From NCBI RefSeq assembly GCF_038024855.1, contig NZ_CP139089.1, positions 1,488,001 through 1,552,000 of the forward strand: a DNA stretch of 64,000 nt, given 5' to 3'. The notes beneath the pieces are model-generated. The model was not told the DNA's origin. It ran no database searches and was given only the letters and a program-made list of their open reading frames with translations. The translations under genes and the position numbers were made by a program. The stretch is from Methylocella tundrae. Its GTDB lineage: Bacteria > Pseudomonadota > Alphaproteobacteria > Rhizobiales > Beijerinckiaceae. Of this stretch, positions 14,903 to 44,528 are shown one piece after another. The stretch's first letter is position 1, and each line of letters starts with the position of its first letter.

Positions 14903-16489
14903 CTAAAAGCTCAGCGCCTTGACCTCCTTTACGCCAGGCAGCGTCTTGACCTCGGCGAGCACTGTTTCGGGCGCGGCCTCGTCGACAGCGACAAGGGCGA
15001 TCGCCGAGCCTCCCTCCCGGTCGCGGCCGAGCGCGAAGGTTGCGATATTGATGCCAGCGGCCCCGAGCATGCTCGTGAACCGCCCGATGAAACCGGGCTT
15101 ATCCTCATTGCTGACATAGATCATCGCCGGCGCAATGAGCGCATCGACGTCGATCGTGTTGACGGAAATAATTCGCGGTTTGCCGGCATGAAAAACCGTG
15201 CCCGCGATGCGCCGCTCTTCCGTCTCGGTTTCAACCACCAGCGTGATGAGGGATTCGTAATCGCCATCGGCTGCGCGGCTTACTTCGTCGATGACGATGC
15301 CCCGTTCCTTTGCGACCGCCGGCGCGGAGACGACGCTGACGTCGGCGAGCATCGGACGCAACAGCCCGGCGATGACTGACGCCGTCAACGCCTTCGTTTT
15401 CAGCTCCGTGACGGCGCCTTCGTAAATGATCGTCACTTTTGTGACGCCACTATCGACGAGCTGACCGGCGAAAGAGCCAAGATACTCGGAAAGAGCGATG
15501 AAGGGCCTGAGTTTTGGCGCTTCTTCGGCCGTTATCGAGGGGAAGTTCACAGCGTTCGAGACAGCGCCTCGGGTGAGATAATCAGACATCTGCTCGGCGA
15601 TCTGCAAAGCCACGTTCTCCTGAGCCTCGCTCGTCGATGCGCCAAGGTGCGGGGTGCATACAACATTGGGATGGCCGAACAACGGATTTTCCTTGGCGGG
15701 TTCATCGACGAAAACATCGAAGGCCGCGCCCGCGACGTGACCAGAATCGAGCAGAGCTCGCAAAGCCTGCTCGTCGACGAGGCCGCCACGCGCGCAATTG
15801 ATAATTCGCACGCCTTTCTTGGTTTTGGCGAGGGTCGCCGCCGAGAGGATATTTTTCGTTTGCGCGGTCAATGACGTGTGCAGGCTGATGACGTCGGCGC
15901 GGGCGAGAAGACTGTCGAGGTCGACCTTTTCGACATCGAGGTCCTGCGCCCGTTCAGGCGACAAGAACGGATCGTAGGCGATGACATGCATGTGTAGCCC
16001 GCTGGCGCGCGCCGCGACGATAGAGCCAATATTGCCGCATCCGATAAGACCCATCACCTTGCCGGTGATTTCGACGCCCATGAAACGTTTCTTTTCCCAT
16101 TTTCCCGCCTGTGTTGAGGCGTCGGCGGCGGGAATTTGCCGCGCGAGCGCGAACATCAGGGCGATCGCGTGCTCCGCCGTGGTGATCGAGTTCCCGAAGG
16201 GCGTATTCATCACGATCACGCCCTTGGCGGTCGCCGCCGCGATGTCTACATTATCGACGCCGATGCCGGCGCGGCCAATGACCTTCAGCCTGGTCGCCTT
16301 CTCGAGAACTTCGGCGGTGACCTTCGTATCGGAACGAATGGCGAGCCCGTCGAAACCGCCGACGATCGACGCCAGCTTTTCTTTGTCCTTGCCGAGGGCC
16401 GGCTGAAAATCGACTTCGACGCCGCGATCCTTGAAGATGGCGATGGCGGCCGGCGAAAGAGCATCTGAAATGAGAACGCGCCGAGACAT
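14903..16489 (-). CDS. serA: D-3-phosphoglycerate dehydrogenase
   Basis: SerA (528 residues) oxidises 3-phosphoglycerate with NAD, the first step of serine synthesis. It is the long form: the substrate domain (about 1-100 and 285-315) surrounds the NAD domain with GLIGCGNIGSIVA. An intervening domain (about 320-450) and a C-terminal ACT domain (about 455-528, starting MIYVSNEDKPGFIG) follow. The ACT domain is the usual site of feedback control by serine. The catalytic His is in CTPHLGAST. ATG 16489 follows GGAG with a 6-base spacer. serC lies 70 bases upstream in the same direction, giving a serC-serA operon. Confidence 0.96.
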   Translation of the reverse strand: MSRRVLISDALSPAAIAIFKDRGVEVDFQPALGKDKEKLASIVGGFDGLAIRSDTKVTAEVLEKATRLKVIGRAGIGVDNVDIAAATAKGVIVMNTPFGNSITTAEHAIALMFALARQIPAADASTQAGKWEKKRFMGVEITGKVMGLIGCGNIGSIVAARASGLHMHVIAYDPFLSPERAQDLDVEKVDLDSLLARADVISLHTSLTAQTKNILSAATLAKTKKGVRIINCARGGLVDEQALRALLDSGHVAGAAFDVFVDEPAKENPLFGHPNVVCTPHLGASTSEAQENVALQIAEQMSDYLTRGAVSNAVNFPSITAEEAPKLRPFIALSEYLGSFAGQLVDSGVTKVTIIYEGAVTELKTKALTASVIAGLLRPMLADVSVVSAPAVAKERGIVIDEVSRAADGDYESLITLVVETETEERRIAGTVFHAGKPRIISVNTIDVDALIAPAMIYVSNEDKPGFIGRFTSMLGAAGINIATFALGRDREGGSAIALVAVDEAAPETVLAEVKTLPGVKEVKALSF

Positions 16490-25874: not shown

Positions 25875-26354
25875 TCAAGTCGTGCGCTGTCGCCCCTCCG
25901 CCGCCGGCGCCTTTGGACGCAACGTCACGACAACATTGACGCGGGAGACTTCATAGTCTTCGGGTGTTCTGATGTGGTCCGTGAGTTTAATCTCATCGGG
26001 TCCAATATCGCGAATTTCCTTTGTGTCCTCAAAATAGTAATGCGGATGGTCGGTCGTGTTCGTATCAAAAAACGTAGGGCAGCGGTCGATCGACAAAGCG
26101 CGGACGAGCCCGACGCGCGCAAATACATTTAGGACGTTGTACACCGTCGCCAGCGACGTCTGTGTGTGCGCGACCCGCGCTTCGAACGCAAGAGTTTCAG
26201 CCGTCAAATGCCGGTCCCCTCTGCCGAAGAGCAATTTCGCAAGGTTGCGGCGTTGCCGCGTCGCTCGAAGGCCATATCTCTTCCACAACACGCCGCTTGA
26301 AAACTTCAATGTAGCAGATCTCTCAACGAGAGGCCCATCCCCGGGGTCACCCAT
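25875..26354 (-). CDS. Fur-family regulator, Irr-like
   Basis: This is a 159-residue DNA-binding regulator of the Fur superfamily, closest by eye to rhizobial Irr, the haem-responsive iron regulator. A winged helix lies at about 20-85 (GLRATRQRRNLAKLLF, SLATVYNVLNVFARVGLV). The dimer domain contains FDTNTTDHPHYYFED, equivalent to the Irr stretch with clustered histidines, here His103-Pro-His105. A Cys92-Pro93 pair stands just before it, and Cys-Pro is the core of haem-regulatory motifs. ATG 26354 follows AGG with fair spacing. GTG 26402 upstream lacks a ribosome site. It may be a second Irr copy rather than the main one. It lies beside the sMMO cluster, which needs iron (inference on relevance). 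Confidence 0.85.
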   Translation of the reverse strand: MGDPGDGPLVERSATLKFSSGVLWKRYGLRATRQRRNLAKLLFGRGDRHLTAETLAFEARVAHTQTSLATVYNVLNVFARVGLVRALSIDRCPTFFDTNTTDHPHYYFEDTKEIRDIGPDEIKLTDHIRTPEDYEVSRVNVVVTLRPKAPAAEGRQRTT

Positions 26355-26464
26355 CACGCACCTGCCTTTCGTGCTTTTCTTGCTTTTATCAAATCCGGCC
26401 ACTTTACTGGCTGGCCTCAGCCCGCCCGCGCCGCTGATTATCGCCAGACAGAAAGCCTAAGCGC

Positions 26465-26815
26465 TCAACGAGCGCCTGGGGCGCCCGGTTGACTTTCAGA
26501 GCGCTGAACAATGAAAGGACGCGCCGCCGACACTCGGTCGATGAACTCCTGTGTCGTGTCGGTTGTGATCGACGTTGTACCCGGCCCAACGCGCTCGGCG
26601 ACGAGCTGTCCGGCGCCCGAAACTCTGTCAATGAATTCTTGCGCCGGATTTGTCTCAATCTTCGCTGATGAGACACCGGTGCGCTCTGTTGTAAACGGCT
26701 TTCCTGATACACGATCGATGAAAGCTCGCGCCGGATCTTCGGCATTTGCCTGTGTGTAAATGAAGCCAGCCGCGATTGCCGCGCCAACAATAAAATACCA
26801 ATTTCTCTTATGCAT
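26465..26815 (-). CDS. Exported three-repeat protein with FIDRVS motifs (unknown function)
   Basis: The protein has 116 residues. A signal peptide (about 1-25, IVGAAIAAGFIYTQANA) leads into a short acidic mature protein made of three repeats of about 29-30 residues. Each contains FIDRVS (at 32-37, 61-66 and 91-96) preceded by a Pro/Thr-Ala/Thr-Gln/Arg-Glu/Ala turn, and followed some residues later by an Arg-terminated strand (TTER, VAER, IVQR). I recognise no family. ATG 26815 follows GGGAG with an 8-base spacer. A close match to the sigma-54 consensus lies about 70 bases upstream of the start, and a dyad also found upstream of mmoX lies further up, so it may be controlled by MmoR. Confidence 0.75.
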   Translation of the reverse strand: MHKRNWYFIVGAAIAAGFIYTQANAEDPARAFIDRVSGKPFTTERTGVSSAKIETNPAQEFIDRVSGAGQLVAERVGPGTTSITTDTTQEFIDRVSAARPFIVQRSESQPGAPGAR

Positions 26816-26895
26816 CAAAGTGTCTCCCAGTCGAGCTTTGCTTCTCCGACTCCCACGTCGGATTGCGTTCGCTCCGGCAACAGTTCGTTGCATTT

Positions 26896-26911
26896 AGCAG
26901 GAGACGTGCCA
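26896..26911 (-). promoter_or_regulatory. Predicted sigma-54 promoter of the FIDRVS-repeat gene
   Basis: Read on the minus strand, TGGCACGTCTCCTGCT has the -24 element TGGCACG, the -12 element TGCT and the exact 10-base gap between GG and GC. Only one base of the core -12 element (CTGC for TTGC) departs from consensus. Transcription would start near 26885, about 70 bases before the ATG. Confidence 0.65.
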
Positions 26912-27070
26912 CCCATCGACGCTGCGCGCATTTAGTTGACAAGCGCTCGACGCAGCTTGGACACGCTCGATAAAACAGCGATGTATGACCTATCGGACGG
27001 ACGCCACATTGGATTGTATGGCCTTGCCAACGCGCGTCTTCAGTGGCGACGGCCTTCCATTTTCATACAC

Positions 27071-27087
27071 TGTATGTCATCTGAACA
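27071..27087. promoter_or_regulatory. TGT-N11-ACA dyad, candidate enhancer site
   Basis: TGTATGTCATCTGAACA lies about 160 bases upstream of the sigma-54 promoter, a usual enhancer distance. It overlaps a 13-base palindrome CATACACTGTATG (27064-27076). Two more TGTATG half-sites stand at 26982 and 27015. The same layout occurs upstream of mmoX. A single TGT-N11-ACA match is expected by chance every few kb, so the weight comes from position and the shared arm. Confidence 0.4.
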
Positions 27088-27434
27088 CGATTACATGGAC
27101 GCCCCTGTAGATGAATGGCGGGAGAGGATATCGCCGCTGGCGCGGACAACCGCAATTGACCAAGAGCAATTGGTCTACAAGACGCCCCGGACAGCGCAAA
27201 GACCGTCGAGCGCCACTGTGAGTTCGTCAGGCATTGGGCGGCGGAAAACATTCGCGCAATTTGTGATTTGATATAGTGAGAACGGTTCCCCCGAGGATCT
27301 CCCTCAGATTTTCGATAAAGCCTTTCACTCCCAGATATGGGCGAGCCCTGCCTCGCAGTGGGCGTTTTGTGGCGCCCGCTGCTCTCACCTTGGGCTACCC
27401 CTCAACCGCGCTCTATCCGTCGAGCAGGACAAGC

Positions 27435-29111
27435 TCAAATGCGCGGATTCTCTCGGGTCGCCGCCGCCCACTCCCCGGTATAACCGAAGGTCGGATCCTC
27501 GGGCGGCACGTTAGCGACCACGCACTCGGTAGTCATGAGCGCACCCGCCGTTAAGGTTGCGTGCTGCAGAGCAAGACGCGTAACCCGTAACGGATCAATC
27601 ACGCCAGCCTCGAAGAGATTGCCAAACCGGCAGGTCCTCGCGTCAAGCCCCCAATGTTCATCGTCCGACGCCAGCGTCCGTGACGTCACGGCATAAGCAT
27701 CCTCTCCTGCATTATGAGCAATCAAACGCGCCGGCTCGCCCACCGCATCCGCAATGATTTGAATGCCATGTTTGACCGCGATATCCGTCGACGAAAGCGC
27801 GCGCAGGGCTTTCCGGCAGCGAAGAAGCCCGACGCCGCCACCCGGCAGACCGCCCTCGGCAAGCGCGGCGGACACGGAATTTCGGGCATTCTCTACGCGC
27901 TGCAGGCGCTCCTTCATCTCCGCCTCGCTGCCGCCGCCCACGTTGATGGTCGCCGTGACATTCGAGAGATTGGCGATCCGTTCCTGGAGTTCATCGAGGT
28001 CATGAAGCTTGCCCGTCGGAGAGCCCTTGTCGCTGCTCCGCAGTCGATCCGTCTCTAGCCGCAACCCATACAGTCTCTCGGCAACCACGCTGGGATCGCC
28101 GGCGCCGCCGAATAAGTTGGTCGTATCCTCGCCGACTTGAACGCGTCGCGCGCGACCGAGATCGGCGAGCTTTACTCGGCCAAGGTCGTCTCCATTTTCT
28201 TCCAATATGGCGCGGCCTCCGAGTAAGCAAGCGAGGTCGGCGAGGGTTTCCTTGCGACGATCTCCCTGGGCAGGGGGTTTCACCGCAACGGCTTTCAGGA
28301 CGCAGCGGACATGATTGAGCAAAATCCCTGCGAGGGCCGCGTCTTCGACGGCTTCGGCGATGATCAGGAGCGATCCTTCGGCCTGCCGCACCTGGTCCAA
28401 AATCGGAATCAACTCTTCGAAATGTTTGATCGGTCGATCGTAAAGGAGCACATAAGCATCCGTCAGCTCCGCGATCCTGCGCGTCTTGTCCGTGATGAAA
28501 TAAGGCGAAAGCCAGCCTTGCTCCCAATGCGCGCCTTCCTGAAACTCGATTTCATCTTCAAGTCCGTTGCCGAGGTTGATGTTGATGACGCCCTCACGGC
28601 CAACCGCGCTGAAGGCGGAGGCCAGGAGCTTTCCGACCGATGCGTCGCCGTTCGACGCGGTCGCGCCGATCTGAACAATCGAACGCTCGTCGGCGCAACT
28701 CTGCGCCCGCCTCTCCATGTCCTCAATCGCGGCTCGCGTAGCAAGCTCCAAGCCGGTCCGCAGGCCATTCGGATTGAGCCCGGAACTCATCGCCCTCAAC
28801 ACCTGCCGAGCGATGTAGCGCGCGAGAACGATCGTCGTTGTGGTTCCGTCACCGCACTGCTTCGAAACCTTTCCGGCCATTTCGGTAAACATGTTGATTC
28901 CGGCGCTTTCGAAACGGTCATCCACCGCGATCGATCGCGCCACCGTAACGCCGTCCTTGGTGACAAGCGGCTGGATTCCAGAGGTGCGATGCTCGATGAT
29001 GACGTTGCGGCCGCGCGGTCCGAGCGTGACTTGCACCGCATCAGCCAGAAGATTTGCGCCCGCCAGCATCTTGCGACGCCCCGTGTCGCCATAGCGAATA
29101 TCTTTTGCCAT
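27435..29111 (-). CDS. mmoG: sMMO-associated GroEL-like chaperonin MmoG
   Basis: MmoG is a 558-residue chaperonin of the GroEL family encoded in sMMO clusters. It is needed for sMMO expression in Methylosinus, where it is thought to assist MmoR or enzyme folding. The nucleotide-site segments VTLGPRGRNV, TKDGVTVA (Asp53) and CGDGTTTT (Asp88) are conserved, as is LPGGGVGLLR. The residue matching the GroEL catalytic Asp398 is Asn408 (QRVENAR where GroEL has RVEDAL). The Gly/Met tail of GroEL is absent, the ending being NPRI. GGGAGG precedes ATG 29111. No groES partner is present. It is the last gene of the cluster, 190 bases after the small orf. Confidence 0.92.
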   Translation of the reverse strand: MAKDIRYGDTGRRKMLAGANLLADAVQVTLGPRGRNVIIEHRTSGIQPLVTKDGVTVARSIAVDDRFESAGINMFTEMAGKVSKQCGDGTTTTIVLARYIARQVLRAMSSGLNPNGLRTGLELATRAAIEDMERRAQSCADERSIVQIGATASNGDASVGKLLASAFSAVGREGVININLGNGLEDEIEFQEGAHWEQGWLSPYFITDKTRRIAELTDAYVLLYDRPIKHFEELIPILDQVRQAEGSLLIIAEAVEDAALAGILLNHVRCVLKAVAVKPPAQGDRRKETLADLACLLGGRAILEENGDDLGRVKLADLGRARRVQVGEDTTNLFGGAGDPSVVAERLYGLRLETDRLRSSDKGSPTGKLHDLDELQERIANLSNVTATINVGGGSEAEMKERLQRVENARNSVSAALAEGGLPGGGVGLLRCRKALRALSSTDIAVKHGIQIIADAVGEPARLIAHNAGEDAYAVTSRTLASDDEHWGLDARTCRFGNLFEAGVIDPLRVTRLALQHATLTAGALMTTECVVANVPPEDPTFGYTGEWAAATRENPRI

Positions 29112-29301: not shown

Positions 29302-29652
29302 TCAAAGCGGTTTACGCGGTCCCCGCGCCGGCCTCGCTGGAGCCGTCCCGGCGGGTGCTGTAGAATGCTGGCTTCGAATCATATAGGCGCGCCCAGCAGC
29401 GACTCGTCGTTCGCGCGAGCGCTCGAGACGATGCCAGATCCAAATCAACTTCTTGTCGTCCCAATCCATGTAACGCTTGATATCTTCTTCGTCGGCGGGA
29501 TCGAGCTGCTTTGTCCAGAGCTGCTCGAGTTCCTCGACGCGCTCATCACCGATGAGGGCGCGCAGAGTCGCTTCTTCAATTTCCAGTTCGTGGATTGTGG
29601 CTTCGGCGCCTTTTGCCATTTCGGCGAGAAACTGTTCGATCTCGTCGTCCAT
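29302..29652 (-). CDS. Small conserved-looking protein between mmoR and mmoG, unknown
   Basis: This is a 116-residue cytosolic protein without a signal peptide or membrane segment. Residues 1-65 are strongly acidic and probably helical (DDEIEQFLAEMAKGAEATIH, then ERVEELEQLW). They are followed by a Trp-rich stretch (YMDWDDKKLIWIWHRLERSRERR, about 61-84) and a Pro/Ala/Arg tail. GGGGAG precedes ATG 29652, and it starts 33 bases after the mmoR stop, so it is co-transcribed with mmoR. I do not recognise the family. Its position suggests a role in sMMO expression or assembly. Confidence 0.8.
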   Translation of the reverse strand: MDDEIEQFLAEMAKGAEATIHELEIEEATLRALIGDERVEELEQLWTKQLDPADEEDIKRYMDWDDKKLIWIWHRLERSRERRVAAGRAYMIRSQHSTAPAGTAPARPARGPRKPL

Positions 29653-29685: not shown

Positions 29686-31779
29686 TCATTTGCGCAAACC
29701 GAGGCGCGCCATCTTGTGGTACAAAGTCGCTCGCGTTATCCCGAGTTGTCGCGCTGATTCGGAAATGTTTCCTGCCGTCTTGGCAAGCGCCGAGCGGATA
29801 GCATCCGCCTCCCAATCGGCGAGCGCCTTGCTCTCAGGCGAGGGTCGCCATTTGGCGTATGACGACAGCCCTGCTTCACCCTCCTCCTCGGCTTGAGCGG
29901 AATCGCTCATTTCCCTTAGAAAATCATTCGGCAGGTCGGAAACGAGCGTCTCGGGACCTGAAGTCATGGCCAAACACGAACGCAAGACATTGCGCAATTC
30001 GCGAATATTGCCCGGCCAAGGATGACGCTCGAAAATGTCCCATACCTCGGCACTCAAAGCCTTGTGTTCATCGACGTATTGCGCCTTCACCTCCTGCTCC
30101 CACAAATGCTCGATCAGACCGAGTTTATCGGGACGCTCCCGCAGAGGCGGCAGCCAGAATTGGGCGCCGTTCAACCGATAGTAGAGGTCGCGGCGAAACG
30201 CCCCTTTTCTCACGCAATCGGGAAGATCGCTGTTGGTCGCGGCGATGACTTGAACGTCAACCGTCACTGGTCTTGAGCCGCCGACGGGGACGATCTCCGA
30301 ACTATCGAGCGCACAAAGAAGCGCAGTCTGGAGATCGAGAGCCATGTCGCCGATTTCATCGAGGAACAGAACGCCCGTATGCGCCTCAACGAATTTGCCA
30401 GTCTTGCCGCCGGTGCGGGCGCCTGTGAAGCTTCCGGGTACATAGCCAAAAAGCTCGCTGGAAATGAGATCTCGCGGGATCGCCGCGCAGTTGACAAGCA
30501 CCAGAGGCCGGCCTTTGCGCACGCCCTCCGCGTGAATTCTGCGCACCAGATGGTCTTTGCCGACGCCGGATTCGCCGGTGATCAGCATCGGTATCTTCTG
30601 CTTTTGAAGATTGACCGCCTTCTGCAGCGCTGCCTCGAGGACGGCGTCGCGCCACGGCTCCGCGTTCGCGGCCTTGCCCCTGCGGCCAAGAACAAGACCT
30701 GCCGCGGCGCGGCCTGTTTCCTTTAGCGCAGAGCTCCGGCTGGGCTGAACGACGTCTTTCTCAGGACGACGCCTGACGATTAATTCCGCCTTGAGGCGCC
30801 AGCCATCAGGTATCTCGAGTTCGATCGGTTCGCCACGGCTCGCGCAGGCTCGCAAATCGCCGATAGCAACTCCGAGCAGCGTCTCCACTTTTTTGGAGAG
30901 GATGTTCGAATGGCATTCGGCGCGCAATAGGTTGAGCCCTGTCCGAGTCGCGCCGACGATCCTGCCTTCTTCATCAAGCGAGATGAGGCCGTCGAGCAAA
31001 CAATCTTGTCCGGTCAAGCCGGCGCCGATGTTGTTCAGGCGCATCCTCAGCATGAAAGCGCCAGGCGCCTGGCATTCGAACAAATTCGTCTCGATCAGAT
31101 AGCCGGCGATGCGCACGAAACCGAGAAGCGTTTGTGCCGACGAACGCTGGTCCGTGATGAGCCCGAGCAGGGCGACCAATCCGCCGTCATGGGCGAAAAG
31201 CGGATGGCCCACAGTTGCGAAAGGGTGAAGAACGGAAGAAAAATGCTCCTTCCCATCGAAGGCAACGGGCTCGCGCAAGACAGCCGCTGTTCCTAACCCG
31301 TTGTTGCCGATGATGAGTTCATTCCAGCTCTCGCCGAGCCGAACTAAGCGACGGCCCATGGGGCCAAGATTAGAGCCGGCGTCCAAGGCGTGAATGAGCG
31401 TGCCGGCGCTATCGGCCAAAAGGAGACTGACGCTCGTGTCCCGCAGCACCGGCTGCAGGTTGAACGCCATCGTCGCCAGCGCCGTCCTGACGTCGAGATT
31501 GGTCGCCGGCGCGGTGCGTCCGCCGTTTTCGAAATCCATGATCGCATGCGGGCGCAGAAGACTGGTTCGCGGCGAGAGCCGATATTCTTCGATGCATCGG
31601 TACCAAGCTTCCGATACTTGCGGACGCACCCAGTCGTCGCCCTCGGGCGGCTGACCGGTCTGCATCATCCAGTCCCACGCCACCCCCGGCCGGTCGACGC
31701 CGAACAGTCCAGCGTCCTGCTCCGGCGCTTCAACATCCTGCGGTTTTAACTGATTTGGCATCTGGACGACGGAGTACAT
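29686..31779 (-). CDS. mmoR: Sigma-54-dependent transcriptional activator MmoR
   Basis: MmoR (697 residues) activates sMMO transcription with sigma-54 RNA polymerase. The N-terminal half (about 1-340) is a GAF/AcoR-type sensory region. The AAA+ domain (about 375-610) has Walker A GESGVGKDH, the sigma-54 contact loop as GSFTGA rather than the commoner GAFTGA, Walker B VLFLDEIGDM, and arginine-finger region FRRDLYYRLN. A Fis-type helix-turn-helix ends the protein (ISESARQLGITRATLYHKMA). ATG 31779 lacks a clear Shine-Dalgarno sequence: a GTGGTGGTGGTG run precedes it. The gene follows mmoC by 44 bases on the same strand. Confidence 0.95.
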   Translation of the reverse strand: MYSVVQMPNQLKPQDVEAPEQDAGLFGVDRPGVAWDWMMQTGQPPEGDDWVRPQVSEAWYRCIEEYRLSPRTSLLRPHAIMDFENGGRTAPATNLDVRTALATMAFNLQPVLRDTSVSLLLADSAGTLIHALDAGSNLGPMGRRLVRLGESWNELIIGNNGLGTAAVLREPVAFDGKEHFSSVLHPFATVGHPLFAHDGGLVALLGLITDQRSSAQTLLGFVRIAGYLIETNLFECQAPGAFMLRMRLNNIGAGLTGQDCLLDGLISLDEEGRIVGATRTGLNLLRAECHSNILSKKVETLLGVAIGDLRACASRGEPIELEIPDGWRLKAELIVRRRPEKDVVQPSRSSALKETGRAAAGLVLGRRGKAANAEPWRDAVLEAALQKAVNLQKQKIPMLITGESGVGKDHLVRRIHAEGVRKGRPLVLVNCAAIPRDLISSELFGYVPGSFTGARTGGKTGKFVEAHTGVLFLDEIGDMALDLQTALLCALDSSEIVPVGGSRPVTVDVQVIAATNSDLPDCVRKGAFRRDLYYRLNGAQFWLPPLRERPDKLGLIEHLWEQEVKAQYVDEHKALSAEVWDIFERHPWPGNIRELRNVLRSCLAMTSGPETLVSDLPNDFLREMSDSAQAEEEGEAGLSSYAKWRPSPESKALADWEADAIRSALAKTAGNISESARQLGITRATLYHKMARLGLRK

Positions 31780-35711: not shown

Positions 35712-37292
35712 TCAGAACCCGGCGAGGGGATCGGCGAAGACACAATTGGCGCGCTTCAGATCCTCGACTGTCCACAATTTGTCGCCGCGAACATGCGGCT
35801 GCCCGATCAACGTCTTGCCGTCGGCGCGAACGCCGTGTCCTTCAAGGACCACATCCGATAGCTCGCGGCCGCTGTATTGTTCGAAGACGCTCTGGCATTC
35901 ATAGCGCTCGGGTTCCGCCAACCACATCCGCTCGCCCCAATCATCGCTGAAGGAGTGCTTCTGACCGTTGAACTCGTGCACTCTGAGTGATCCCGAACAC
36001 TTTGCGAGGGTCGGGCAGAACGGCACTTGCGACACGCGATCGACATAGACCTGGTGGCCATTCTGGATCAGCCATTGAATCGGAACGAATCCGCTCGTGG
36101 GGTCCTCGCAGCCGAGCGCCTTCCACTCGCGCAGAATCTTGCCGTAGTGCGCGTCCCATCCTGGATAGTTCGACTCGAACCATTCCATGTCTTCTTCATC
36201 CGGCAGCGAGAGCCGGAAGAAGCCGGTCGGCCACAAGGCGTAGGCCAAAAGGAAGAGATCGTGATGCGCCCAATAGGCGTCCTTTTTGGCGTCGCGCAGG
36301 CTCGGCGGTGAGTTGACGCCGTACTTTGCGAGACGGCCGATCCAGATGCCGCCCCAATCCTCGTAGACCCAACGATTCCAGGTCTTGACCCAGGGCTCGA
36401 CCTTGAACTTCGACCCATATTCGAAGAGCATGCCCAGCACGGGCGTGAAGTACTTCTGCTGGGTCCAGAATGCGTTGTTGAGATCGGTGTTCAGATATTT
36501 CTGGGCGGCCGGATCGTTGGCGATCGAAACGACTGTCTGGTAGCCGTTCGCCATATGACGGAGTTCGTCGGTTTCGATCGACAGAAATACGGTTGGCGTG
36601 ATTTCATCGCCGTTCGCTGACGCCCACTCAGTGATGGCGACGATCAACGGGTTAGTGAAGCAAGCTTCACCAACCAGTTGGAGATTGACCGAACATTCGA
36701 CCGCATCGCCGGAGATGAAGCCGTCAGCGAAGACGCGCTTCATTCCCTTCCAAAGCGGTCCGATTGCGCGGGTGCGGCGCGCGTCATTATGGCCTGCGGG
36801 GTCATGGTAATGCTTGGAGAAATAATAGTTCACGAAGCCGCATTGATGGGTATGACGGATCTCATCAAGGACCTGTGCGAGGTAACCATTCTTTTGCTCG
36901 GCCGCGCTCGCCGAATCCCACAACATCGCGGACGCCGCTATAGCGTTGTATTCGCCAACTTCGAGGAAATTCGACGCGACTTTCATCGTCTCACCCCAGC
37001 GCGGATGCACCCGGCTGCCGGCTTCGAGGCGCGTCAGGCCGTCGAGCAAGGTGCCGAACTGACGCTCGTCCTTGACCGACTCCATTCGCGCATATTCTTT
37101 GGCGATGAGCTTGAACTGCTCCTTTGTGTCGTTCGCCATATGATATTTGGTGGGATATTTCGTCCGGTTTTGAGCGAAATCCCAGTTGAAGCTCTGCAGC
37201 CACCTATGCACTTCCTGGGGACTTACACTTGTCGGCGCCCGGTTGGCTCCGAGTGCGTCCGACGCTGCTTTCGTCGCGGTGCTTAATGCCAT
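35712..37292 (-). CDS. mmoX: sMMO hydroxylase alpha subunit (diiron)
   Basis: MmoX (526 residues) carries the diiron centre that oxidises methane to methanol. All ligands fall at the classic numbers: Glu114 (EVGEYNA), Glu144 and His147 (DEIRHTHQ), Glu209 (LVGEACFTNP), Glu243 and His246 (TDELRHMANG). Active-site Cys151 and Thr213 are also present. The length and numbering match Methylosinus and Methylococcus MmoX without gaps up to His246. A ribosome site (AGGAGG) precedes ATG 37292. It is the first gene of the cluster, with a sigma-54 type promoter about 105 bases upstream. Confidence 0.99.
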   Translation of the reverse strand: MALSTATKAASDALGANRAPTSVSPQEVHRWLQSFNWDFAQNRTKYPTKYHMANDTKEQFKLIAKEYARMESVKDERQFGTLLDGLTRLEAGSRVHPRWGETMKVASNFLEVGEYNAIAASAMLWDSASAAEQKNGYLAQVLDEIRHTHQCGFVNYYFSKHYHDPAGHNDARRTRAIGPLWKGMKRVFADGFISGDAVECSVNLQLVGEACFTNPLIVAITEWASANGDEITPTVFLSIETDELRHMANGYQTVVSIANDPAAQKYLNTDLNNAFWTQQKYFTPVLGMLFEYGSKFKVEPWVKTWNRWVYEDWGGIWIGRLAKYGVNSPPSLRDAKKDAYWAHHDLFLLAYALWPTGFFRLSLPDEEDMEWFESNYPGWDAHYGKILREWKALGCEDPTSGFVPIQWLIQNGHQVYVDRVSQVPFCPTLAKCSGSLRVHEFNGQKHSFSDDWGERMWLAEPERYECQSVFEQYSGRELSDVVLEGHGVRADGKTLIGQPHVRGDKLWTVEDLKRANCVFADPLAGF

Positions 37293-37405: not shown

Positions 37406-37422
37406 CAGCAAGTGTGGCGCCG
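37406..37422 (-). promoter_or_regulatory. Predicted sigma-54 promoter of the sMMO operon
   Basis: On the minus strand CGGCGCCACACTTGCTG has GG and GC exactly 10 bases apart and a perfect -12 element (TTGCT). The -24 element is CGGCGC instead of TGGCAC. Transcription would start near 37396, giving a leader of about 105 bases before mmoX. sMMO operons are known to use sigma-54 with MmoR. Confidence 0.65.
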
Positions 37423-37498: not shown

Positions 37499-37537
37499 CA
37501 TTACCGTAATGCAGATTATTTGGATTATTCTAATCCA
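37499..37537. promoter_or_regulatory. Two palindromes about 80-115 bases upstream of the mmoX promoter
   Basis: CATTACCGTAATG (37499-37511) is a 13-base palindrome with one central base. TGGATTATTCTAATCCA (37521-37537) is a 7-bp dyad around TTC. Both stand where enhancer or repressor sites of a sigma-54 promoter would be expected. They differ from each other and from the TGT-N11-ACA dyads. Confidence 0.45.
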
Positions 37538-37935: not shown

Positions 37936-37972
37936 CTGTATGGAATTTATACAGTGTATAGATTCCATACAG
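37936..37972. promoter_or_regulatory. 37-base palindrome made of two TGT-N11-ACA units
   Basis: The arms CTGTATGGAAT (37936-37946) and ATTCCATACAG (37962-37972) are exact reverse complements, and the centre TATACAGTGTATA is itself a palindrome around G37954. It can be read as two tandem 17-base units, TGTATGGAATTTATACA (37937-37953) and TGTATAGATTCCATACA (37955-37971). It lies about 515 bases upstream of the mmoX promoter. Confidence 0.6.
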
Positions 37973-38084
37973 ATCGATTATCCCTCGATATGTTTGGTTC
38001 AGGCCTGTGCGGGCTGTCTCATTCAGGAGGCAAGCTGCAAGCCGAACGCGCGCCTTGGGTTTTTCAGAAATCCGATTTGGATAA

Positions 38085-38126
38085 ATTCCATACAGTATCC
38101 ATTTTGAACTGTATGTATTTTGTACA
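38085..38126. promoter_or_regulatory. Further copies of the same dyad arms
   Basis: ATTCCATACAG recurs exactly at 38085-38095. TGTATGTATTTTGTACA at 38110-38126 is another TGT-N11-ACA unit. CATACAG (38089-38095) and CTGTATG (38109-38115) also face each other. This makes three full units and extra arms within 190 bases. Confidence 0.5.
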
Positions 38127-38264
38127 CAATATGAGATCTACAGCCCCTATCCGCCATTTCGACTCTAGCTTGATACAGCGAAGGGTCGCTCGCCGCCGTT
38201 TAGGCGACTTCTAACGACTGGCGTTTAACCTCGGATCACGCTACGCTTGACCCGAGGATCTGGC

Positions 38265-39017
38265 ATGCGTGCTTCGGCGGCGGTTATTCTGTTGATGATA
38301 TGGTGCTTGCCGGCCAGTGCGCTGTCGCCTTCCGTGAGCTACGCCGATGCGGAACGCGCCTTTAGTCAGCTTGCGATCGGCGAGCGGTTTCTGTTCAAAG
38401 TCTTGCTGACAACGGCGGGTTATTGGCCCGCAGTCGCCGACGCCGATTTCAGCCGCGGACTTTTTGACGCGACGACGCATTATCAAGCCGACAATGGGCT
38501 TCCCGCAACAGGCGTCATCGATAAGGAGCTTCTGGCGAGGCTCTATCGGAATGGCGCGCCTCTTCTGAAGGTGTGGGGTTTCCAGCAGGTTGCGCACCCT
38601 TACCGCGGTCACCCGATCTGGGTTCCAATGGGGCTTGGCTTGGTGGCGGAGCGAGATAAGAATGGCCTCACATGGAGGGACCCGGAAAAGCGCGTATGGG
38701 TGACATATGATTGGCTCCCAGGGGTCAATCTCGCAGCTGCCTATAATGCTGTTCTCGCCAAAGTCGTTGCTGACGGCGGACAAATCTCGTTCCAAATGTT
38801 GAAGAGCGACTATTTCGTCGTCTCATCGGCTACAAACGGCCTCGATAGCTATATCCGCTGCCAGAGTGATCGTCCCGACGCCCTCTGGCTGTCGATTTTC
38901 TGGCTGCATGATGCATCTGATCTTCACATGGAGCGCGCGGCGACTCTGATGTCCGGTTCGTTCGCGAGCGCGATGAGCGGAGCGCCGTTCGCCAACATTC
39001 CCCAGCTACCGCCATGA
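38265..39017 (+). CDS. Exported protein with peptidoglycan-binding domain
   Basis: The protein has 250 residues. A signal peptide (about 1-22) is followed by a peptidoglycan-binding-like helical domain at about 40-105 (FSRGLFDATTHYQADNGLPATGVIDKELL). The C-terminal half of about 140 residues has alternating Trp-rich strands (VWVTYDWLPG, LWLSIFWLHD) and no family I recognise. GAGG precedes ATG 38265. The gene diverges from mmoX across the 972-base regulatory region, so it might share control elements (inference). Confidence 0.7.
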   Translation: MRASAAVILLMIWCLPASALSPSVSYADAERAFSQLAIGERFLFKVLLTTAGYWPAVADADFSRGLFDATTHYQADNGLPATGVIDKELLARLYRNGAPLLKVWGFQQVAHPYRGHPIWVPMGLGLVAERDKNGLTWRDPEKRVWVTYDWLPGVNLAAAYNAVLAKVVADGGQISFQMLKSDYFVVSSATNGLDSYIRCQSDRPDALWLSIFWLHDASDLHMERAATLMSGSFASAMSGAPFANIPQLPP

Positions 39018-44237: not shown

Positions 44238-44528
44238 ATGCGCGCTCTTCTCGATGTGATTTTGCTGGTTCTTGACCTTTATACTTACGTCGTGATCGCA
44301 GCAGTGATTCTATCGTGGCTGATAGCCTTCAACGTCATCAATACTTACAATGACGTGGTCCGCGCCATCGTCAATGCGGTCAACGCGCTGACGGAGCCGG
44401 TTCTGCGGCCGATTCGGCAAGTTTTGCCGAATTTTGGCGGGCTTGATATTTCTCCGATCGTCCTGTTTTTGATTATTTTTCTTATCCAGCGTATCATTAT
44501 TCAATACATCTATCCGAACGTCTATTGA
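44238..44528 (+). CDS. YggT family membrane protein
   Basis: This is a 96-residue inner-membrane protein with two hydrophobic regions (about 5-32 and 70-92) and the family signature ALTEPVLRPIRQVLPNFGGLDISP between them. YggT proteins are widespread; links to osmotic adaptation and cell division have been proposed. The next gene (yggU family) overlaps its stop codon by translational coupling (TTGA), the usual arrangement. Confidence 0.92.
   Translation: MRALLDVILLVLDLYTYVVIAAVILSWLIAFNVINTYNDVVRAIVNAVNALTEPVLRPIRQVLPNFGGLDISPIVLFLIIFLIQRIIIQYIYPNVY

Follow-up and report, generated by a model that had tools for sequence, protein, structure and literature searches.

A probable second sigma-54 unit in the Methylocella sMMO cassette, encoding an exported FIDRVS repeat protein and an Irr-like regulator

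In Methylocella tundrae, the gene for a small exported protein with three FIDRVS repeats, together with the Irr-like gene directly downstream of it, probably constitutes a second sigma-54 unit within the sMMO cassette of Methylocella, with MmoR as its activator. Both genes lie in the window, the whole 64-kb stretch of M. tundrae DNA that was analysed, to which the coordinates below refer; the genome searched comprised 4,422,208 bases (4.42 Mb) in three contigs. In the mechanism proposed here, MmoR, with MmoG, would bind 17-bp TGTAT-N7-ATACA dyads upstream of mmoX and, some 160 bases above the promoter of the FIDRVS gene, a related site of the form TGTTC-N7-ATACA-n-TGTAT. It would activate sigma-54 polymerase at both the mmoX and the FIDRVS promoter, and sMMO would be made along with the small exported repeat protein and an iron/heme-responsive regulator of the Irr type.

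The FIDRVS gene and its product

The gene occupies positions 26465..26815 on the minus strand and encodes 116 residues; its M. silvestris BL2 ortholog is annotated Msil_1271, hypothetical protein. The three repeats described in the original prediction were recovered in the translation of this reading frame at residues 32–37 (26705..26722), 61–66 (26618..26635) and 91–96 (26528..26545). Judged by eye, residues 1–25 (26741..26815) are signal-peptide-like, ending with ANA, an A-x-A motif, immediately before EDP, which leaves a mature part of 91 residues with a pI of about 5.4 and no cysteine. GGGAG stands a short way 5' of the ATG. An alternative longer open frame of 142 residues runs from 26893, but the 116-residue start was preferred because the ATG at 26893 sits above the expected sigma-54 start near 26885. 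Across four loci dN was well below dS in all six pairs (dN 0.08–0.34, dS 0.33–1.26), with values of 0.34 and 1.20 between M. tundrae and M. silvestris BL2, and the reading frame is supported as a real coding gene under purifying selection.

No Pfam family reached its cut-off for this protein and no NCBIfam model matched at E<=0.01, in agreement with the initial remark that no family was known for the repeats. Two UniRef names were considered and rejected. DUF4148, given to M. silvestris proteins, was set aside as P0001, P0004 and P0007 had no Pfam DUF4148 match at E<=1, and lipoprotein, the name of P0004, was set aside as P0001 has no cysteine and hence no lipobox; the A-x-A before EDP combined with the lack of cysteine suggests that ordinary cleavage fits better. 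An AlphaFold2 model built from eight sequences was unusable (mean pLDDT 51.8, pTM 0.16), and there is only a hint, from modelling, of three short helices at the repeats. The idea that the repeats form amphipathic helices was rejected, their hydrophobic moment being ordinary relative to shuffles.

No function for Msil_1271 was described in the available excerpts of the open-licence literature on the Methylocella mmo cluster, its locus tags and its regulation. As a guess, the repeat protein might be a flexible periplasmic three-site ligand of an envelope partner, perhaps tied to the iron demand of sMMO.

Separately, the database protein P0008, listed as encoded on a 3,909,803-base contig of the window's own genome, was found to be a hybrid with another frame at its start and the FIDRVS frame at its end. 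This frame-shifted hybrid suggests a small indel between two assembly versions of M. tundrae T4 at 26465–26815; the T4 genome has been described as a chromosome of 3,909,804 bases and two megaplasmids (PMC6522787).

Distribution and the sMMO cassette

A single-sequence query listed eight FIDRVS homologues at E<=1, and a profile search, in which the 8,000 candidates sharing most words were scored, gave 15 at E<=0.1. Within the genus Methylocella, mmoX (E<=1e-30) was present in 4 of 15 genomes and the FIDRVS family (E<=0.1) in five, namely the four bearing mmoX and G103, a genome without mmoX whose relative is divergent (29% identity) and has, by eye, no methane link among its gene neighbours. 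In a family-level sample, a match at E<=0.01 occurred in 5 of 149 genomes. When the family was searched again later, 22 of 397 genomes had mmoX; 11 of these 22 probably fall within the 149-genome sample, judging by handle numbers, and 4 of those 11 carry the FIDRVS gene. One G076 protein is identical to Msil_1271, which would make this genome M. silvestris BL2; G040 is probably M. silvestris TVC, and the sMMO genomes of other genera appear to be Methylosinus/Methylocystis-like.

The neighbourhoods of mmoX were then compared by tblastn in stretches of 14–20 kb. The FIDRVS gene was present in all five canonical sMMO clusters of four Methylocella genomes and was not found at L056, L107, L108, L109, L038 or L110–L113, the stretch of L057 ending too early to count; the cluster at L038 resembles the bmo clusters of strains PC1 and PC4 (PMC6778391). 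The suggested co-occurrence with mmoX thus held inside the genus, where all four mmoX-bearing genomes have the gene, and failed across methanotrophs, since the gene was in none of the mmoX neighbourhoods read from other genera and a divergent relative is encoded in the mmoX-less G103.

Two exported proteins encoded away from mmo genes, P0010 of M. silvestris and P0014 of G103, resemble the FIDRVS protein in their start and in a D-P-x-x-x-F-V-x-x-[VL]-S-G-like stretch, but P0010 differs in having a single clear repeat and P0014 in having strongly altered repeats. A short exported M. silvestris paralogue, likewise away from mmo genes (L074 1501–1824 and L075), has a single FVDRVSG repeat and differs in its C-terminal part.

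In the window, the minus strand carries mmoX (35712..37292, by ORF and profile match), mmoR (29686..31779), encoding a sigma-54 activator with a Fis-type HTH, ORF2 of the mmo operon (29302..29652; PMC5874634), mmoG (27435..29111), encoding a GroEL-like chaperonin, the FIDRVS gene and, in the same direction directly downstream, the gene of an Irr/IrrA-like Fur-family regulator (25875..26354, with an assumed ATG; the longest frame begins at 26402). The order mmoXYBZDC-mmoR-ORF2-mmoG-FIDRVS-irr, all in one direction, was found in M. tundrae, in two M. silvestris genomes and in a second copy in G144. FIDRVS and irr end the cassette, after mmoG, in all five canonical sMMO clusters of the four genomes. 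The flanks vary: glpD and glpK were found behind irr in M. tundrae only, and the G144 second copy, unlike the other loci, has no divergent gene before mmoX. This constancy of cassette order amid changing flanks suggests that FIDRVS and irr travel with sMMO. Between the stop codon of FIDRVS and the probable ATG of irr lie about 110 bases in M. tundrae, 116 bases in BL2 and, at the second copy, 75 (starts assumed); the two genes are probably co-transcribed.

The second copy, L037 (G144:C91:14401–34380), is itself a second complete sMMO cassette in the same species. Its MmoX is 99% identical to that of the window, its FIDRVS protein 67% identical, and it has its own Irr-like gene and different flanks, all of which suggests that the cassette moves as one piece.

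For the downstream gene, the Irr/IrrA Fur-family iron-response regulators were the nearest match, but with 144.7 bits against NF045678 (IrrA, cut-off 150) and 141 bits against NF045677 (Irr, cut-off 170) both scores fall under the curated cut-offs, and the product is therefore called Irr-like only. At L056 in G431, a genome from another family (MmoX 92%), mmoG is followed by a Fur/Irr-like gene (15781–16209, 38% identity) but the FIDRVS gene was not found, so the link between sMMO and Irr may predate the FIDRVS gene.

Two further genes of the region were noted. ORF2, which has no Pfam or NCBIfam family, adjoins mmoG both in the clusters of Methylocella and, at 41–49% identity, in four Methylosinus-like loci that were read; it appears to be a widely kept, uncharacterised part of the sMMO cluster. 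The divergent gene upstream of mmoX (38247–39017, plus strand) encodes a secreted protein of 256 residues; the M. silvestris frame (L051) has 497, so the gene may be shortened in the M. tundrae strain, and no good sigma-54 promoter was seen upstream of it.

Promoter and upstream element

The putative sigma-54 promoter of the FIDRVS gene, TGGCACGTCTCCTGCT (26896..26911, minus strand), was identified by motif scan and conservation. As originally predicted, TGGCACG-N5-TGCT stands with exact spacing 81 bases upstream of the ATG, and it is the sole zero-mismatch match to TGGCACG-N5-TGCW within the window. The string carries little weight by itself. With up to two mismatches allowed, 26 matches occur in the window where chance would give 41, which means no enrichment of this motif class. 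In the whole genome the exact pattern occurs twice and its reversed control six times, and the promoter string taken alone is therefore no evidence. The evidence is instead its conservation, as TGGCAC-N7-TGC is kept in all four distinct loci aligned, two of which are closely related M. silvestris strains. The GG and GC doublets are 10 bases apart within the consensus TGGCAC-N5-TTGCW, with CTGC rather than TTGC at -12. The one other exact TGGCACG-N5-TGCW site of the genome (L020 1501–1516) is closely followed by a gene whose product looks, by eye, like a peptide-type ABC-transporter binding protein.

Alignment of the four distinct loci revealed a conserved block some 160 bases above the sigma-54 element, reading TGTTCAGATGACATACA-g-TGTAT in M. 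tundrae, TGTTCAGATGACATACG-c-TGTAT in M. silvestris and TGTTCAGATGACACACATATGCAT in the second copy, where the core is changed to ACACATATGCAT. On the basis of the alignment, pattern scans and a matrix, GTGTTCAGATGACATACAGTGTATGAAAA (27060..27088, minus strand) is the candidate MmoR activator site of the unit, with the form TGTTC-N7-ATACA-n-TGTAT; its left half-site is TGTTC, not TGTAT. In the 4.42 Mb genome the core ATACASTGTAT is present just twice, upstream of FIDRVS and upstream of mmoX (reversed control 0), and since it was chosen after both the FIDRVS block and the mmoX match had been seen, the clean statement is that there is no third place in the genome.

A 24-base pattern, at up to two mismatches, matched only the FIDRVS and mmoX places in G000 and G144, the FIDRVS site only in G076, the FIDRVS site and two weak others in G040, nothing in G103 and G126, and two weak sites in G157, the pattern having been built from the two M. 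tundrae sites, so that their own match is by construction. The reversed control gave 1, 1, 0, 0, 0, 0 and 0 matches (G000, G144, G076, G040, G103, G126 and G157). As a wider genomic motif the TGTTCAGATGACATAC block was rejected, being found at nine places at up to three mismatches against two for the reversed control, and exactly at FIDRVS only. Nothing convincing was seen in the way of IHF-like sites between the FIDRVS enhancer and promoter.

Upstream of mmoX, the minus strand contains a sigma-54 promoter, CGGCGCCACACTTGCT (37407..37422; consensus in PMC5874634), a proximal 17-bp dyad, TGGATTAGAATAATCCA (37521..37537), 115 bases above the -24 element, a distal 37-bp palindrome made of two tandem exact TGTAT-N7-ATACA dyads (37936..37972) and a second distal dyad pair, TGTACAAAATACATACA and TGTATGGAATTTATCCA (38078..38126). 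The proximal dyad, TGGAT-N7-ATCCA, has the same 17-base geometry as TGTAT-N7-ATACA. Fis-type activators, NtrC among them, typically bind sites built as 17-base dyads. Exact TGTAT-N7-ATACA sites are located upstream of mmoX in two of two cases in G076, two of two in G040, two of three in G000 and three of four in G144, and there are none in G103 and G157, relatives without mmoX (reversed control 0, 0, 0, 1, 2 and 1 sites in G076, G040, G000, G144, G103 and G157). The distal dyads are >500 bases above the mmoX promoter, closer to the divergent gene, and mmoX of L037 has none in the 1.5 kb read. The proximal inverted repeat was rejected as the sole MmoR site, as it was not seen at FIDRVS.

A different assignment of this element, which we consider unlikely, is that ATACA-n-TGTAT is an operator (a 7-1-7 box) of the adjoining Irr-like protein, which would control its own unit and mmoX while MmoR acts elsewhere. 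The Irr-like gene is adjacent in all four distinct loci and the M. tundrae core can be read as a 7-1-7 palindrome; between the two distal mmoX dyads, however, lies one base in M. tundrae and two in M. silvestris, with both dyads still exact, and an activator that binds dyads fits this better than a 7-1-7 box of the Fur type does. The shared 17-base geometry of the proximal dyad also argues against the operator, as does a similar element upstream of mmoX in Methylosinus-like genomes, where the four neighbourhoods read showed no irr-like gene.

Binding of the dyads by MmoR was further explored with sites from other genera. Eighteen mmoX loci were fetched and 15 used (L101 and L106 had no promoter call and L103 no start). 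In these 15 Methylosinus/Methylocystis-like upstreams TGTAT is invariant in a block starting roughly 95–125 bases above the promoter, mostly with GTAT before it and ACA or ACG 7–9 bases on, a pattern from which L105 departs. A cross-genus matrix trained on 10 of the 15, all from other genera, ranked the mmoX palindrome 1 and 2 and the FIDRVS site 7 of 127,946 in the 64-kb window; ranks 4 and 5 are also upstream of mmoX, and unrelated positions 44489 and 44471 outrank the FIDRVS site. The site ranked 4 of 31,948 in BL2 and 5 of 33,948 in TVC, and just 35 of 39,906 at L037.

With a reverse-test matrix trained on Methylocella distal mmoX dyads only, the two best places in the window outside the training set were the mmoX proximal dyad (rank 5) and the FIDRVS site (rank 6), and the FIDRVS site was 10th in L034 and 6th in L037. 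An arms-only Methylocella matrix placed it 8th in the window, 17th in L034 and 23rd in L037. When a fixed-consensus dyad was compared with shuffles of the 250 bases above the promoter, p<0.05 was reached in 7 of 24 mmoX loci, and p was 0.09 (M. tundrae) and 0.61 (BL2) at FIDRVS.

MmoR of four of the training genomes is about 49% identical to that of M. tundrae, and its recognition helix, LGITRATLYHKM, is identical in 10 of the 12 loci read, Methylosinus-like ones included, and off by one or two residues in L056 and L057. Sigma54_activat has 13 matches in the genome, nine of them strong, mmoR among them, and mmoR is the sole match within the window, as had been claimed for it. The FIDRVS promoter could accordingly depend on sigma-54 through another of the strong activators, and the FIDRVS site is an imperfect match to the mmoX dyads. 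This seems improbable, more so than an Irr operator, as the helices of all five readable activators among the eight others (L025, L028 and L029 were left out) differ from that of MmoR, and the near-unique core shared with mmoX points to the mmoX activator.

MmoR is therefore the likely binder of the upstream element. For the proposed membership of the FIDRVS gene in the MmoR regulon, independent sequence support comes from the near-unique element common to FIDRVS and mmoX, which is weak at the second copy L037, from the cross-genus prediction and from the MmoR helix. That promoter and upstream block are chance, beside a lineage-specific exported protein with an ordinary promoter, is very improbable, since both are kept at similar spacing in all four distinct loci aligned, even though the promoter pattern is no commoner than its reversed control.

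Implications and comparison with known systems

The regulation of sMMO in Methylocella has been called little known (PMC9291206), and the available excerpts of the open-licence literature on mmo regulation, including PMC5874634, PMC6522787, PMC6778391, PMC9291206 and PMC12403871, define no MmoR site. In Methylosinus, gel shifts indicated that DNA binding by MmoR upstream of mmoX needs MmoG (as cited in PMC5874634). Methane raises the activity of the M. silvestris mmoX promoter and other substrates lower it (PMC5874634); the FIDRVS-irr unit is expected to behave likewise, and methane probably induces both genes. In M. silvestris mutants sMMO amounts to 14–27% of total protein (PMC9291206); given the di-iron sites of this enzyme, a connection with an iron regulator is plausible. 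The Figure 7 legend of the same paper mentions an unnamed hypothetical protein.

A broader reading, offered tentatively and with somewhat less than even confidence, is that MmoR is not a one-operon regulator and that its targets in Methylocella also include an Irr-like regulator and an exported repeat protein belonging to a new family. Methane growth would then be wired feed-forward to envelope change and iron control, and TGTAT-N7-ATACA would be a so far undefined MmoR enhancer across alphaproteobacterial methanotrophs. What methane growth turns on probably goes beyond the sMMO enzyme, and there is reason to seek an envelope or iron component of methane growth outside it. The candidate enhancer sequence, the second target unit and the linked Irr-like regulator make sMMO regulation directly testable.

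The known system nearest to the one proposed here is the methanotroph mmoX promoter, which involves sigma-54, MmoR and MmoG. The FIDRVS promoter has in common with it the -24/-12 element, an upstream dyad with an ATACA-n-TGTAT core and an activator encoded in the same cassette, and differs from it in serving a separate downstream unit with no part of sMMO and in its degenerate left half-site.
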